From the NCBI GenBank assembly GCA_963575645.1, contig OY754470.1, positions 5,712,501 to 5,776,500 of the forward strand: a DNA stretch of 64,000 nucleotides, given 5' to 3'. Shown piece by piece: positions 6,096-59,180 of the stretch (within the stretch, counting starts at the first letter, position 1; each line of letters opens with the position of its first letter). Below the pieces are notes generated by a model, which was given only the letters and a program-made list of their open reading frames with translations, had not been told where the DNA came from and ran no database searches. The position numbers were made by a program, and so were the translations under genes. This DNA comes from Xanthostigma xanthostigma (taxonomy: Eukaryota > Arthropoda > Insecta > Raphidioptera > Raphidiidae).

Positions 6096-6420
6096 TTACT
6101 CTAGCGGTCCGGTTCGACTTCGCCCGAATTTGTAGATTGTCGCCGTTTTTTCGTCGACTTGCGTTGCAAAATTGGTCCATTCTAAATATTGGTGAAAAAA
6201 ATTTTGAAATCGGATGAGTAGTTTCGGAGATTGACTCCTACACCCAAACTTAGAAACTTGATCTCTTTGTAATATTTTAGCGGTCCGTCTCGGTTTCACC
6301 CGCGGGTGCGATATATATAATTCTGCAAAATGTATTTCGTTTGTCTGAACTAACAGCTTTGAGCTAATTGCAAGTTCTAACAGATGTCGCTATTTGGTAC
6401 TAAGCAGTGTTGTTTATTTG
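6096..6420. repeat. Two fused LINE 3'-tail fragments (types T1 and T2)
   Basis: Positions 6096-6277 match the T1 tail seen at 26342, 32943 and 34079, with markers CGTTTTTTCGTCGACTT, GGATGAGTAGTTTCGGAGAT and CTCTTTGTAATATT. Positions 6278-6420 match the T2 tail seen at 7330 and 39765, with markers CACCCGCGGGTGCGA and TGCAAAATGTATTTCGTT. Such 3' untranslated tails without the upstream ORF are typical of 5'-truncated RTE-like LINEs. No reverse transcriptase remains here. Confidence 0.6.
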
Positions 6421-21944: not shown

Positions 21945-22120
21945 AAAATCTTTGATTAACGTCTGATTAGAATTCTTCAATAAATAAAATTATCGACCAA
22001 TTTTTCAGACAAATATATTATTTTTTCAAATTTGAATATAATTTAAAAACTTAAAGCGAATATTTTTAAATACAAATTAGAAATTAATTATTAATTATTT
22101 TTATATTTTTTAGATCAGTT

Positions 22121-22158
22121 CTGAAGAAGTTCCAAATCCGGACCGAAACGTCAATGTA
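22121..22158 (+). ncRNA. Hammerhead-ribozyme core, copy 1
   Basis: CTGAAGA (22121-22127) is followed by a helix-II hairpin with one mismatch, then GAAA (22145-22148). After it AC...GT could form the very short helix III with a GTA cleavage triplet ending at 22158. The conserved core is complete. Helix I pairing is weak, so activity is doubtful. Confidence 0.5.
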
Positions 22159-22240
22159 TTAATTATTATTTTTCGTTAATATATTTGTCTGAAAAATTGG
22201 TCGATATAATTTTATTTATTGAAAAAATAAAAAAAATTAT

Positions 22241-22278
22241 TACAATGACGTTTCGGTCCGGATTTGGGTCGTCTTCAG
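22241..22278 (-). ncRNA. Hammerhead-ribozyme core, copy 2
   Basis: On the minus strand: CTGAAGA, a helix-II strand GACCC against GGACC, GAAA, then AC-GTCATT-GT-A. All core boxes match the hammerhead consensus CUGANGA...GAAA...UH. It lies in one arm of a palindrome whose other arm holds copy 3. Confidence 0.5.
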
Positions 22279-22421
22279 AAATATGTAATCTGAAAAATAT
22301 AAAAATTAATTAGTATCTACTTATTTTACAATAAAATTAGGACTGAATTATTTAAAAAATTCAGTCTTAATTCTATTGTAAAATAAGTAGATACTAATTC
22401 ATTTTTTTATATTACATATTT

Positions 22422-22459
22422 CTGAAGAAACTTCAAATCCGGACCAAAACGTCATTTTA
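22422..22459 (+). ncRNA. Hammerhead-ribozyme core, copy 3 (mutated)
   Basis: CTGAAGA is intact but the GAAA box reads AAAA and helix II is weakened (ACTTC against GGACC), so this copy should be inactive. It pairs as the inverted partner of copy 2. Confidence 0.45.
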
Positions 22460-22530
22460 TTAATTTTTAGATTTTTTGTTAAGATATTTGTCTGAAATGG
22501 TCGATAATTTTATTTATTTAAGGCTATTTT

Positions 22531-23127: not shown

Positions 23128-23773
23128 GAAGTAAAACTTCTTTAGGCACGATTGACGTGGGGAGTAAGCTGGTAAATGCCTGACGAAAGCGTTTACGGAA
23201 GTGCATCATCGGACGAGGCGAACGGTGCGTGATCGTTCGAGGCGAACGGTAGTTGAGAGGGAGATATAAGTTAGTGAAGATGAGAGAGAGAGGGTTACGT
23301 TTCGTATGTTGGAAGTTGAGAGGGAGATATAAGTTAGTGAGTGCGACAAAGACGGAGCATTAATCGAAATTCTTTTTTTTACGTTTAAAATGAAAACAAT
23401 TGTTTTTGTATCAAAAATACATTTCATTGAATTTTGCTGCATTTTGTAACGGGAAATAATGTAGGTTAGTTAATAAATCCTTTTAAATGTATTATAAATT
23501 ATGCTAATAAATAAATATACATATTTTGCCTATTAATTAACCAAAAATTATATTCAATAACTAAAATTATCGACCAATTTTTCAGACAATAAATTAACAA
23601 AAAACAAAAAAATTATATTTTAAACATTTCGTCTTTGTAGATATGTGCTACAGAGTGAGGTTATATTGAGTCGTTAAATCAGGATGTCTAATCAAAATAT
23701 GGTGATAGATTATCGAATATTATTGTATTATATATTATTATATATTATATATGGAAGGAAAAAGTTTTACTTC
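23128..23773 (-). mobile_element. GAAG element, rearranged copy
   Basis: It starts GAAGTAAAACTTCTTTAGGC and ends AAGTTTTACTTC, giving the family's TIR. The first 230 bp match the other copies, including two successive 'gttgagagggagatataag' blocks. The interior after about 23350 is different, and a Penelope-like fragment (ATCGACCAATTTTTCAGACA) sits near 23570. So the interior has been replaced or interrupted. Confidence 0.6.
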
Positions 23774-30752: not shown

Positions 30753-31436
30753 TATAGTGGAGTCGCTATAGCTTTGTAAAAAATAAATATTAAAAAGTCA
30801 TCTGAAAGCCAAAAAAAAAATCCCGTTCAAATATTATGTATACCTTGCGGGACAACCAGAGTTGCTTCCATCCGATTATTTTTTTGTGAAATTGAACCCT
30901 AAAAACACTGGCAAAATCCGATAATAATTATAAAAATCAATAACACTGGCACTGTAGAAAATTCCAATTCAACTTGTTTCCTTACCGACTTTTATCAAAA
31001 TCTATCAGATCTTTCCAACGGGGCATCAGAGGTTAGCAAACTGATAACCTTTTAATACCTGACGTACAAACTGCGGGTCAATGACGTAGCTTTTATGATA
31101 CTCCGCCTGTATGATTAGAGACGATTCCGATGCATATCTTCGGAGGAAGGCGTACGGAGAGTGTGTTTGAGAGAAATGTTTATAAATGTTTTCACAATGG
31201 CAATCATTAGCGAACAAATGGTGATGACAAGTCCGGTTTGTATTCAACAATGGTCTGTAATCGAAGTAATCGATTCGGTCATCTCCATTTACAGATATAT
31301 ACATACAAACATATGTTCAATGGTTCTACTTATACAATATCATTGACCGCAAGGAAAAGTTATTAATGTTTTTATTCCAGTGCACCTCTTGTAATTACTT
31401 TTGGGTAATCAATCGTAGACAAAATATATATACACT
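30753..31436. other. Unannotated stretch
   Basis: A 92-codon minus frame (31026-31304) has no known motif. Nothing else noticed. Confidence 0.35.
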
Positions 31437-31858
31437 ATGATCCTTCTATATGGATCTGAAACCTGGAAAGTGACGAAAGCCATAACAACTAAACTGCAAA
31501 TCTTCATAAACAAATGTCAGAGCAGTCCTCAGGGTGAAATGGTACGAACACATCTCGAACAACTAACTTTGGAAACGTGCATGTCTTGAACAAATCTGTA
31601 TAACTATAAACCGTAGGAAATGGAATTGGATAGGACACTCGCTACGAAAGACAGATGACGACATAGCGAAGATAGCCTTGGATTGGAACCCACAGGGATA
31701 CCGAAAAAGAGGAAGACCAAAAATATCCTAGAGAAGAACTCTTCGTGAAGAAGTTATGGAACAAGGAACTACCTGGCTTCAAGTCAAAATTTAAAATTTT
31801 CGTAGAGGCCCTATACTCCACTGAGGAGTTAAAGGAACTTATTATTATTATATATGAT
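31437..31858 (+). pseudogene. RTE-like reverse transcriptase C-terminus, copy 1 (broken)
   Basis: The translation includes LLYGSETWKVTKAITTKLQ, RRKWNWIGHSLRKTDDDIAK and ALDWNPQGYRKRGRPKISW, the typical C-terminal part of RTE-type LINE ORFs just before the 3' tail. Against the copy at 32030-32475 it has a 2-nt deletion near 31511 and a TAG in place of the Trp codon after KIS, so it is dead. It ends in a TTA-repeat tail. It is 5' truncated at CCTTCTATATGG, close to where the inverted copy also ends. Confidence 0.85.
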
Positions 31859-32029: not shown

Positions 32030-32475
32030 GTATATAATAATAATAATAATAAATTCCTTAACTCCTAAGTGAAGCATAGGGCCTCTACGAAAATTTGGAA
32101 TCTATCTTTTGCCATATTTTTGACTTGTAGACAGGTAGTTCCTTGATCCATAACGTCTTAACGAACAGTTCTTCTCCAGGATATTTTTGGTCTTCCTCTT
32201 TTTCGGTATCCCTGTGGGTTCCAATCCAAGGCTCTCTTCGCTATGTCGTCATCTGTCTTTCGTAGCGTGTGTCCTATCCAATTCCATTTCCTACGTTTTA
32301 TGGCTATACAGATTTGTTCAAGACATGCACGTTTCCAAAGTTCGTTGTTCGAGACGTGTTCGTACCATTTCACCTTGAGGATTGTTCTGAGACATTTGTT
32401 TATGAAGATTTGCAGTTTAGTTGTTATGGCTTTCGTCACTTTCCAGGTTTCAGATCCATATAGATTATAGAAGGG
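32030..32475 (-). pseudogene. RTE-like reverse transcriptase C-terminus, copy 2 (inverted)
   Basis: The minus frame 32439-32158 gives FINKCLRTILKVKWYEHVSN and KRRKWNWIGHTLRKTDDDIA, then PQGYRKRGRPKISWRRTVR and a stop, where copy 1 reads on in frame (LREEVMEQ). It also keeps an extra 3' segment absent from copy 1. A (TTA)n tail lies at 32030-32052. The two copies are about 90 percent alike and form a large inverted repeat. Confidence 0.85.
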
Positions 32476-32942
32476 CCGATTTTACATTCGAGTTAAAAAT
32501 ACGTAACTTCGTTTTTTCAAAAATCATGCTTGAATGCCAAATACGATTTAAACTGTATACACGGGTGAAATATAGAACTCTTATTTCGGAAGGCGGTAAA
32601 AAACTTTGTCTTGCGGGCCACAGATATATTGGGTGTTCATTGTATACATAAATAAGTTCACACAAACCGCGGGCAACGGGTCGCGCGGCAATTGAACAAA
32701 CGACATTGTGGTGTGTATTGACAACAGTTGACAAGATGTTTTACCTTGTACGGTCGCATACCCCTGTCAGGGCTGGGTATATTGGCTATCAATAATGATC
32801 CAAGCGCCGCAAGAAATTAATCAATCGTTTGATAACGCGATAAGTAGAGCTGAACTTTCAAGCGCAGAAAAACAGATCCGAAAACTTTAAACCGTTTTAA
32901 ATCCATTGTCCAGGAGTTGATAATACCTCAGAAAACTTATAT
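32476..32942. other. Unannotated stretch
   Basis: A CAGGGCTGGGTATA motif at 32768 looks like a DNA-transposon end, but no partner was found. Overlapping frames of 76-89 codons are of chance length. Confidence 0.35.
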
Positions 32943-33050: not shown

Positions 33051-34078
33051 CCAGATAGTGAGTGTTTTGAAGCATTCATTAATGTTGAGCATATATAATA
33101 ATAATTACTATATGAAGCATTGGCTGTTTATGTGCAGTGAGCGAAGGCAACAAATCGTATCGAAAATATATTTGCGTCTCTTTTTTCGAAGTAATTCCTC
33201 GGTTATTCCGACATATATATTATATATAGAACATGTTAATGTATTGAATTTATATATTTTAAAAATATTAAAAATGGGTCGATAATTTTATTTATTGAAG
33301 AGTTCTAATCAGACGTTAATCAAAGATTTGAATATATTATATATATAAGCATTGAGTATATCTCTCTTTATCAATAGTCTTTTTTCTTTATCAATGGCGT
33401 TAGCCAATCAGAACCAACAAGTTCTTACGACTTAAAAAAAGACAAAAGTATATTATGTTTGCATCCTAATGGTTCGATTACGATATTATTCCTATGCTCG
33501 GTATTTAGTGAAAGTATATGATGTTGAGGATAACAACGGATTATTCTATTCGGGCGTATTCTAAACATCCCTGATTGATGTTGCGGTACAACACACAACT
33601 TACATACAGTTGACACTTAAGATGAGCCGCTAGTGTTTTTGCGTGCGCATGCTCGATTGTACATATCTATATATATTATATATATATCGTACAACAATAG
33701 TCGTCATCCGTAATTGTTATTGGATGTGTCCAAGCTAACACGGTGGTCGGACGACAGTTGAATCATGATGGGTGGCCAACTATCCAGTCCCTGTCCCATC
33801 GCAGACTGAAACAATTATTGCCATCTACGTACGTTATTTGATATGAATGACCCTTACCAGCAGACATTATGTAAACAGTTTGATGACATTATTGAATTCT
33901 TGGCATTAGTGTTATGCAATGTTTATTTATTTAGTCAAATACAAAGATAAATTAAAAATAAGTGATAAAAAACGCTTGAATTTTTAGAACAATTTGTTTT
34001 GTACAAACAAATTTGATTTTTATCACAGTCAAAAAAGAAGGTTGGAGTTTATGCTATTGCGAACGTATGATTATATCT
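33051..34078. other. Mostly unannotated; short Penelope-like fragment inside
   Basis: Positions 33285-33330 carry the GTCGATAATTTTATTTATTG - GAGTTCTAATCAGACG block of the Penelope-like repeat. Positions 33650-33700 are a TA-rich palindrome around GATTGTACATATC. Nothing else supported. Confidence 0.5.
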
Positions 34079-44314: not shown

Positions 44315-44462
44315 TATACAAATCTTTGATTAACGTCGGAATAGAACTCTTCAAATAAAATTATCGACTATATATTAACAAAAATTATAAAATTATAATT
44401 CAATAAATCAGATGATGACATTGCGGTCCGGATTTGGACCTTCTTCAGAAATAATCCAAAAA
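44315..44462 (-). mobile_element. Penelope-like terminal-repeat fragment
   Basis: AATCTTTGATTAACGTCGGA, a 'taaaattatcgac' tract and then the hammerhead block, in the same order as the cluster at 21945-22530, minus orientation. Confidence 0.55.
44415..44448 (-). ncRNA. Hammerhead-ribozyme core, copy 4 (mutated)
   Basis: CTGAAGA is intact and helix II is perfect (GGTCC with GGACC), but the GAAA box reads GCAA, so it is predicted inactive. Confidence 0.45.
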
Positions 44463-45514
44463 ATAGGGATCCGTGCGACCGTTCCCAGATAGACAAGTAT
44501 GAGACTCATGGGTATGATGAAAATGAATTATCCAAATTTTACAGAATATTGAACGTATTTTATTTGACGAAATCAGTATATGAGAGATTTAGATCAAATT
44601 GACATCATCAGAAAAGTGTAATGTAAGCACCGAAATTGTAGAAAAGTATTGAATGAATATTACAGCACGAACGGCTTTACTGATTTTGATAGAAAAAAAA
44701 AACATTTAAATATGTCATCATCTGAATGCTATAGTTAGACCCGGTTTAAAAGATTTTATTTCAAGAAATATATTTTTTTAGTGAGGTCTGTGGCAAGACG
44801 TCTGCCTATACTGGGTCCACTAGTAATTATTACTGATTTGTAGAACTTACTATAGTGTCAAAAATTCCCCTAGAATCACGTCATTAATTGAAGAGAATTT
44901 ATATTTTAACATTGGAAATATTATTACTTTTAATTATGCCATAGTTTCTCTAAATAATTCCAGACAAATGTCGAGATGGTTCCTTATTCTTGGCCATGGC
45001 CGAATACCTGTCAAACTCCTATGCCTACCTTATCCTAATGTCCTAAAATTCCTTCATTCGCCCATTGCTATTAAGTGGAAGTTGAAAAAATTTAGAAAAT
45101 AATGTGAAGTGTGATGGATGGAAAATAGTAATGGTGCGAATGGCGTCTGTTATGACGTAAAGTCGAGAAACGGACGTTAAACGCATTATTATTATTATTA
45201 ATTATGCCATAAATATTCTCCTGTCTTATTTTGCGATAACCGTAAGATAAATTATTATGATAACTGATTATAAGTTATAACTATTATTTGTCTGTGAAAA
45301 CGGAATTTGACTGCTTGGGCAATTACCTAGTGAATGCTCGTCACGCTGTTGATATCAAAATAAGCGTTAAATTATGATATTATTATTGTGAAGTGTACTT
45401 CGCAAAGTGTAGCATGAAGCCTGCTTAACATTAAGCACAGTTGAAACTGTAATATTAGTATTATACTTACTTTGCATTTTATCAACAGTTAATCTGTCTT
45501 CAAACTCCATATTT
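44463..45514. other. Unannotated stretch with an ATT tract
   Basis: GACGTAAAGTCGAGAAACGG followed by (ATT)n at 45186-45200 could be an old LINE 3' end. No frame supports it. Confidence 0.35.
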
Positions 45515-45625
45515 TAAACGTTAATGTATTAATTTTTATATTTTTTGTTAATATATTTGTCTGAAAAATTGGTCGATAATTTTATTTATTGAAGAGTTCT
45601 AATCAGACGTTAATCAAAGATTTCC
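45515..45625 (+). mobile_element. Penelope-like terminal-repeat fragment
   Basis: From 'aacgttaatgtattaattt' through TTGTCTGAAAAATTGGTCGA to TCTAATCAGACGTTAATCAA. The hammerhead part upstream is too worn to recognise. Confidence 0.55.
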
Positions 45626-46189
45626 ATATTTTATAACCATGAATTACATTAAGATTATTTTATGTGAGGGTTGGGACATTTTGGAAAAACTATCGTCAGC
45701 GATTTTTTTATAGTTCGCTCGAATCTTAAAAGCAATACGCTCGAGATACATTCTACATTTTTTGCACATACTATCTCCTATAAAATTGCTGATATATTCA
45801 CTTTACAATATTTCTGACAGCTGGTGTCAATGCTGTTTGCGGCCATACTACATTTCATATGGGTCGTTTAAGAAAACTGTTTTGAGTCGCTTACAGAATC
45901 GAACGGTAACTGACGGGTCTCTTTTGGAAATGACTGTACGACCGCTTTTTTTAACACGCTTATATTAGCTTGCCTGTATGTATGAATGAATGTATGTATG
46001 TAAAGGAATCTTTCAGCGTAATTTTCACCAATTTCAAGAAGTCTGATTAACTTGGAAATTTGCACACGTGTCAAGGGCCGATGACAATACAATTATTTCA
46101 TAAAAATAAATTTGAATTTAAAAATTTTGAAAAAAATTACTTTTGATGTCGTTTTAAGACTAATAATTAAGAAAAAAATTATAGTTTAC
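45626..46189. other. Unannotated; probable old repeat near 45965-46090
   Basis: GCCTGTATGTATGAATGAAT and CACGTGTCAAGGGCCGATGA look like a common insect repeat, but I cannot set its ends. Confidence 0.35.
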
Positions 46190-58462: not shown

Positions 58463-59180
58463 AGGTATATCTATACTTACTAATATATAAGAAGAAGAGT
58501 TTGTTTGCTTGTTTGATTGGTTGAACGCGCTAATCTCAGGAACTACCCATTTATTGAGGAAGGCTATAGGCTATATAATATCACGCTACAACCAATAGGA
58601 GCGGAGCATCATTTTCAAAATTTCAAAAATAAGCTTCTATTCAGGTGAAATGCCCTAACTAAATATACCAATATTAGCGTTGTGCATTCACAAGCCCGAC
58701 TAGTTCAGTCGGTAGAGCATGCGTCCTGTTAATATCAGGATCGTGGGTTCGAGCCCCACGTTGGACGAATATATTTTTTATTTTTTTTTTATTTTCTACA
58801 TTACTTTCTTCTAAGGCTTACATTTAAATTTATTTTAATTTTATTTACGACTAATTAAAATTAAATAAATCTAATTAATAGCTCATTTGAAAACTGTTAT
58901 AACTATAGGTACCTATATAAAAATAATTATCCTGCACTGGTTTCAATTAAATATTTATTATATTTTATTAATTACAGTAATTATTGATTAAGAAATTAAT
59001 TACTTAAAAAATGTAAATACTGCTTTTTATCGACAAACAACTTTTGAACGGTAACTCCGATTATCATGAAATTTGGACACAACATTCATCTTGGTAAACT
59101 AAGATGAATGTGCGTACTCATGTCCCTCCATTCCCCATTCGTTCTTTTGCACCCGGGTGAAACCGAACGGGACCGCTAGT
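58463..59180 (+). repeat. RTE-like LINE 3' tail with a tRNA-derived insertion
   Basis: Read from the TA-rich 3' end it has GAACGCGCTAATCTCAGGAA, ACCAATAGGAGCGGAGCATC, then, after an extra block of about 380 bp, AACGGTAACTCCGATTATCA and CACCCGGGTGAAACCG. Strand follows the sense in which the phrases are quoted; the element itself reads the other way. The extra block is absent from 28363-28655 and holds a tRNA-Lys-like sequence. Confidence 0.6.
58694..58767 (+). pseudogene. tRNA-Lys-derived pseudogene
   Basis: GCCCGACTAGTTCAGTCGGT and the 3' half CGTGGGTTCGAGCCCCACG match eukaryotic tRNA-Lys(CTT). The acceptor (6 of 7 pairs), D stem and T stem are intact. The anticodon region has one extra nucleotide and no longer forms the normal stem; an alternative TCCTG/CAGGA stem is possible but leaves the wrong spacing. 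A T-rich tract follows at once. Not expected to decode. Confidence 0.75.

Follow-up and report, generated by a model that had tools for sequence, protein, structure and literature searches.

Within a window of 64,000 nucleotides from Xanthostigma xanthostigma (contig OY754470.1, positions 5,712,501 to 5,776,500; "the window" is this whole analysed stretch), four short blocks carry letters laid out like the core of a hammerhead ribozyme, and the locus raises the question of what these blocks are, which element carries them and whether their family could cut RNA. A sequence-only reading had taken them for hammerhead cores in relics of Penelope-like elements (PLEs). Cervera & de la Pena 2014 and Lunse et al. 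2017 are said to describe minimal type I hammerheads in the pLTRs of PLEs, and Lunse et al. 2017, by its title, reportedly deals with PLE hammerheads that cleave RNA in vitro. We consider it very probable (about 0.93) that a Penelope-like retrotransposon once carried the blocks in its pLTRs as minimal type I hammerhead ribozymes, which have since decayed; their catalysis is a prediction from sequence. This is one more instance of a known association, as minimal type I hammerheads in PLEs are described as established in passages of earlier work (PMC7761336, PMC6155905, PMC7229834).

The four blocks start, each in its own reading direction, at 22121 (+), 22278 (-), 22422 (+) and 44448 (-), where they had been placed, and all of them keep CTGAAGA, the loop AAATCC and the helix II strand GGACC intact. 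The first, F1 (22121-22152, +), combines CTGAAGA with GTTCC/GGACC (one mismatch) and GAAACGTC, the expected cut falling after 22152, and F2 (22247-22278, -) combines it with GACCC/GGACC (two mismatches) and GAAACGTC. In F3 (22422-22453, +) the helix is ACTTC/GGACC (two mismatches) and GAAA is replaced by AAAA, and in F4 (44417-44448, -) a perfect GGTCC/GGACC is accompanied by GCAA in place of GAAA. The GAAA box is thus kept in two of the four copies, F1 and F2, exactly as the sequence-only reading had it, but the GGTCC/GGACC helix it saw in every block is perfect in F4 alone, and the two copies it credited with a complete core do retain GAAA but have a mismatched helix II. Since the sole perfect helix II belongs to a copy without GAAA, core and helix II are nowhere both complete among F1-F4. 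The CUGANGA box, the GAA(A) box and an NUH triplet follow one another in order in F1, in F2 and in intact copies elsewhere in the genome, and not in F3 or F4. Over the four window copies, 15 of 20 helix II cells are paired, with no covariation. A flanking helix I is plausible only for F2 (6 bp, with 66 of 2000 shuffles as good); the corresponding numbers are 185 of 2000 for F4, 1599 of 2000 for F3 and 1838 of 2000 for F1. When single copies were folded, F4 gave the full helix II hairpin and F1 a shortened one, and none of the four gave a complete hammerhead.

The identity of the blocks is settled at the level of the family to which they belong. In the genome searched (623 Mb, 28 contigs, the window lying at C7:5712501-5776500), there are 6337 matches to CTGANGA-N10-24-GAAACGTC and 46 to its reversal, and the 20-mer AAATCCGGACCGAAACGTCA occurs in 711 exact copies and its reversal in none. 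The covariation of helix II was assessed in the first 100 listed motif matches, all on contig C1, of which 95 were kept and five, differing in length, were set aside. In these 95 rows, standard pairs fill 85.9% of cells, where 2000 shuffles average 75.8% and reach 79.2% at most, and for the 43 distinct strand pairs the values are 75.3% vs 62.3% and 69.3%, the shuffles leaving the relatedness among rows in place. A perfect five-pair helix II is found in 49 of the 95 rows and in 11 of the 43 distinct pairs from these first listed places on contig C1. Several helix II families, namely GATCC/GGATC, GATCT/AGATC, GATAC/GTATC and GGCTT/AAGCC, differ on both strands, which is the covariation that a real helix gives. 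The form GATCC/GGACC, with an A-C mismatch, is common as well, making up 9 of the 17 GGACC rows of the genome sample, and the GGTCC/GGACC form restores the mismatched pair in some copies (e.g., L103 and L105). The exact 20-mer of the repeat has no match in the viral-contig or genome-contig collections searched, and a 25-mer from its 3' part none in the viral-contig collection; three viral-contig matches fall in stretches unlike the repeat, look coding by eye only and were taken as chance.

The Rfam hammerhead models match nothing in the window and nothing in seven relatives (E up to 10 was allowed for one of them, and gathering thresholds were applied to the other six), so the motif is not filed under an Rfam family. 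The sequence-only reading had named the lack of such a match as grounds for rejecting it, and formally this is what was found; the models probably miss the minimal form because they need a longer helix III. The other outcome that it had said would count against it, a family in which the GAAA box and cleavage triplet are not conserved, did not appear, both being conserved in the intact genomic copies. Among other Rfam results, a tRNA-like match at 58694-58767 of the window stands above the gathering score.

Which element carries the motif was approached from both sides. Searching the genome for GIY-YIG gave 37 places, 30 of which were taken as loci, and a hammerhead-like motif is present in six of them (L042, L048, L049, L051, L052 and L053, with four helix II sequences; L051 and L053 overlap, and L052 is without ACGT). 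No motif lies within 1.5 kb in the other 24, including 18 of the abundant family that contains L058. From the motif side, a GIY-YIG piece occurs within 1.5 kb in only one of 38 motif-fetched loci (L004-L041, some overlapping), namely L015, where a GIY-YIG ORF ends upstream of the motif and on its strand, the motif there being that of the window family. The strong link between motif and ORF comes from the protein family of L015. Its 114-aa piece has at least 151 matches in the genome, with 150 of 3165 candidates scored, in open frames of up to 822 aa, and the family divides three ways, at about 98, 88 and 81% identity. Twenty top-scoring loci were fetched, L072 among them being L015 again, and in 18 the motif stands 173-190 bp after the ORF stop, with an identical core in 17 and one change in L089; in L090 and L091 it is found elsewhere. 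In the 88 and 81% groups, too, the motif comes after the ORF end in each of the four loci read, of 20 selected. No motif is present in the one 5' region of the long ORF that was read (L108), and three of the 20 top-scoring loci have an inverted motif on the 5' side of the ORF. The L058 and L052 proteins pass the Pfam cut-offs for RVT_1 and GIY-YIG, and the ORFs of L089 and L077 fall below them, so that the PLE assignment of the latter rests on alignment to L058, with 31% identity over 555 aligned positions, including the YVDD box, for L089 and 33% for L077. The same genome thus holds a family with an ORF joining a Penelope-type reverse transcriptase (RT) to a GIY-YIG endonuclease; the proposed search for full elements carrying the repeat has found them, and the assignment to Penelope-like elements holds at family level. 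In these elements the intact motif reads CTGAAGA, one spacer base, a 5-bp helix II, GAA, ACGT, C or T, and A; it lies about 180 bp 3' of the stop, and the repeat ends about 70-100 nt beyond it, at one of two places about 29 nt apart.

The window itself contains solo, inverted and 5'-truncated pieces of the end repeat of this Penelope-like element. Eight copies (F1-F8) lie in the 64 kb, with nhmmer E-values from 1.4e-33 to 3e-14 and the next match at 0.49, under a profile made from those same eight copies, which had first been picked up by blastn. The hammerhead block is present in F1-F4 only; F5-F8 begin inside it or 3' of it, its 5' half missing from all four. F1 (22089-22225, +) has no 3' tail; F2 (22224-22353, -) and F3 (22354-22522, +, without tail) are the left and right arms of a head-to-head palindrome; F4 (44319-44464, -) has the tail; F5 (45517-45622, +) and F6 (33229-33331, +, with tail) are 5'-truncated insertions; F7 (23545-23634, -) is a diverged, 5'-truncated copy without tail; and F8 (21946-22021, -) is a 5'-truncated copy with tail, head-to-head to F1. 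Four reference repeats (L074, L092, L094 and L095) were compared for placing these copies. For F4 the top score is with L074, a member of the 98% group (130/145), the best scores of F1, F2, F3, F6 and F7 are with L094 or L095 (F1 with L095, 123/131), and L094, of the 81% group, matches F5 at 104/105 and F8 at 73/74, near-identities that mark F5 and F8 as young copies. There are no tandem arrays among the window copies, save a possible second partial copy after F8, a weak candidate equalled by 12 of 3000 shuffles and 50 of 3000 AT-rich window pieces. A PLE ORF is absent from the window, in which ten open frames were checked by Pfam. An open frame of 107 aa at 32161-32481 (-), with GRPKISWRRTVR at its end, has no Pfam family above the cut-off and resembles the terminal part of a non-LTR retrotransposon ORF; positions 31419-31586 hold a stretch similar to it. 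Elsewhere, at 23248-23340, two 30-nt direct copies are 97% identical and start 63 bp apart.

Two of the eight copies retain readable insertion boundaries. F5 is bounded by an 11-bp target-site duplication (45506-45516 and 45623-45633) and F6 by one of 14 bp (33215-33228 and 33332-33345); in random controls, duplications of at least 11 bp appear in 0.125% of 4000 position pairs and 0.15% of 2000 AT-rich pairs, and one of 14 bp in none. For F1, F4, F7 and F8, and for the combinations tried, in which alone F2 and F3 were checked, the best duplications are of 3-6 bp only. Both F5 and F6 end at the tail end (AAAGATT in F5, AAAGATTTGA in F6) and begin within GAAACGTT, F5 with AACGTT inside the ribozyme core and F6 with GAACATGTT; these starts precede the expected cut by 6 and 9 nt, and in F5 another 100 nt separate the cut from the end of the tail. 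As they start upstream of the cut, their RNA template was presumably not cut there, and their retaining bases upstream of it indicates that not every insertion requires cleavage at this site. The optional tail, 29 nt long in F5 (45594-45622, +), is present in F4, F5, F6 and F8 and absent from F1, F3 and F7, F2 ending earlier (4, 3 and 1 of 8), and the 20 coding loci divide into 9 with it, 9 without it and 2 unassignable. As a second, decayed hammerhead the tail is a weak candidate (19 of 5000 shuffles and 32 of 5000 window 35-mers are as good). At the other end, 5' starts at the base of helix II are seen in F5, F6, L096 and L098. Genome counts, 798 for the repeat body, 640 and 719 with 8 nt added on its 5' and 3' sides and 467 with 13 nt added on the 5' side, only hint that 5' truncations pile up there, the 467 being depressed by a query with GGATC, where its list commonly has GGACC.

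Inverted arrangements recur at several scales. F2 and F3 form a palindrome (22223-22477) with 109 of 124 aligned positions identical; five of the 15 mismatches between its arms sit side by side across the spacer base and the 5' strand of helix II (regions 22246-22290 and 22415-22435), and five adjacent mismatches are expected in 0.2% of random placements. Matches to miRNA precursors (MIR2646 and others) here are below gathering scores and were discarded as a consequence of this palindrome. Seventeen close ORF pairs, within 10 kb of each other, occur among 150 listed places, 16 of them head-to-head and one tail-to-tail, and the single junction fetched (L109) is a 642-bp palindrome of 99.7%. Among 100 listed places, motif pairs within 1 kb comprise 8 head-to-head, 3 direct and 1 tail-to-tail, and those within 5 kb 8, 8 and 2. 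Repeat pairs 288 bp apart were considered as a mobile palindrome and rejected, as all four copies fetched (L103, L104, L105 and L106) share flanks beyond the palindrome at 98-99%, so the Penelope palindrome seems to be embedded in another amplified repeat.

How the intact motif might fold bears on its possible function. Helix I stays weak in four intact copies, with 4-7 pairs that 282, 347, 889 and 1725 of 2000 shuffles equal. Directly upstream of the hammerhead (e.g., 22106-22117 of the window) come a T-tract and then AGA, a stretch that is able to pair with CTGAAGA and resembles what we would take for a 3' splice acceptor. The predicted fold of an intact copy alone is, in four of four, a hairpin of this poly-U-AGA stretch with CUGAAGA, in which the core is hidden. 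Such a hairpin pairs at least five of the seven core bases in 40 of 47 contexts vs 479 of 940 shuffled ones, a modest excess of which the T-rich flanks explain much.

These observations have to be weighed against other readings of the same repeat. It might be a non-autonomous element akin to retrozymes or SINEs, equipped with a hammerhead of its own and merely co-resident with Penelope elements, as the shortness of the window copies, the window's want of a PLE ORF and the PLE piece in one of 38 motif-fetched loci would suggest. The genome does hold something of that kind: at G000:C1:10656695-10657161 another minimal hammerhead, with GATAC/GTATC as its helix II, stands in three direct copies spaced 220 and 216 bp apart, a retrozyme-like tandem array. 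The repeat of the window, however, forms the 3' end of RT and GIY-YIG elements at near identity, and the 104/105 match of F5 to L094 largely refutes the idea, which we hold to be very unlikely. Nor do its copies, bar the possible partial one after F8, form tandem arrays: the hammerhead-bounded tandem units without an ORF that mark metazoan retrozymes are not what is seen, the copies being solo or inverted and the repeat ORF-linked. Its helix III is minimal as in PLEs, whereas most invertebrate retrozymes are described as having a stable one in passages of PMC7761336. That the decay of AT-rich DNA produced hammerhead-like letters by chance has a negligible probability. The loose pattern alone is expected 0.35 times per window and was found twice, a number reached by 5 of 100 shuffles, but the strict layout, which tolerates a single helix mismatch, arose only 3 times in 400 dinucleotide-shuffled windows vs one real place, F1 (F2, needing two helix mismatches, falls outside it), and the genome count of 6337 vs 46 refutes chance.

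Another alternative takes the motif for a non-catalytic likeness of a hammerhead, conserved as a sequence signal for reverse transcription, splicing or 3'-end formation. The poor support for helix I, the upstream poly-U-AGA with its assumed likeness to a splice acceptor and the frequency of the A-C-mismatched GATCC/GGACC form would all fit. Against it stand the variation of helix II on both strands and the recurrence of CTGANGA, GAAA and ACGT, fixed as they are by the search pattern, at 6337 vs 46; other PLE hammerheads, moreover, cleave RNA in vitro, according to the title of Lunse et al. 2017 and, with protein added, in PAc (PMC11167929). We regard this alternative as unlikely, and retain the decayed PLE hammerhead as the best explanation.

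Comparison with known systems places the family among PLEs with some features of its own. In passages of PMC7761336 and PMC6155905, PLE hammerheads have, as here, a minimal core in which helix III is all but absent, lie at the end of an element with RT and GIY-YIG, and number thousands per genome; there they are described as tandem, whereas here 16 of the 17 close ORF pairs listed are head-to-head, a contrast repeated by the listed motif pairs within 1 kb (8 of 12 head-to-head) but not by those within 5 kb (8 of 18). A second parallel is PAc, a Poseidon element of Anolis carolinensis (PMC11167929), which likewise has an RT and GIY-YIG ORF, a hammerhead, 3' ends at two places about 30 nt apart and AT-rich targets, both duplicated targets in the window being AT-rich. 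In PAc, the optional tail is tied to two RT start sites and the hammerhead is inactive without protein, becoming active only when protein is added (PMC11167929). The PAc hammerhead overlaps the start codon, with the RT starting 111-118 bp into the ORF (PMC11167929), in contrast to the motif here, about 180 bp after the stop and absent from the one 5' region read (L108). That position was not met in the literature passages covered, and we make no claim that it is unpublished. With the Penelope families of Adineta vaga, the repeat shares inverted pLTRs, head-to-head junction palindromes, an optional tail and target-site duplications, as given in passages of PMC3846280; there the tail is of 31 bp, the palindromes are read as self-priming and the duplications are of 8, 9 and 10 bp, unlike the 11 and 14 bp found here. 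The word "hammerhead" is absent from the main text of that paper. Metazoan non-LTR retrozymes resemble the repeat in carrying type I hammerheads in short AT-rich repeats and differ from it in being non-autonomous tandem repeats without LTRs, those of invertebrates cleaving efficiently (passages of PMC7229834).

A life cycle can be proposed. The element would nick AT-rich DNA and start reverse transcription at the tail or at a pre-tail site, incomplete cDNA would leave small insertions, and self-priming would yield head-to-head palindromes. Transcripts of intact copies may self-cleave 3' of the C (or U) right after ACGU, whether on their own, in dimers formed via the ACGU palindrome or together with the protein of the element, an ability that the window copies would have lost. 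Tentatively, the hammerhead, sitting after the ORF, might not be needed in cis for movement, and the upstream poly-U-AGA might keep it off until protein or a second RNA opens the core, making it a switched processing step that could, for example, part head-to-tail or read-through transcripts. The broken-helix form GATCC/GGACC and insertions that start inside the core would have spread regardless. The core-hiding fold would fit the inactivity of the PAc hammerhead without protein, but its pairing excess over shuffles is modest; we think this idea doubtful, if somewhat less so than a non-catalytic signal.

The role of minimal PLE hammerheads in vivo is called "still a mystery" in a passage of PMC7761336, and Rfam models missed the minimal form in every relative tried. 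With its thousands of motifs, near-identical young insertions, readable duplications and helix II variants on one ORF family, the genome of X. xanthostigma makes the role of the hammerhead testable by mapping insertion ends.
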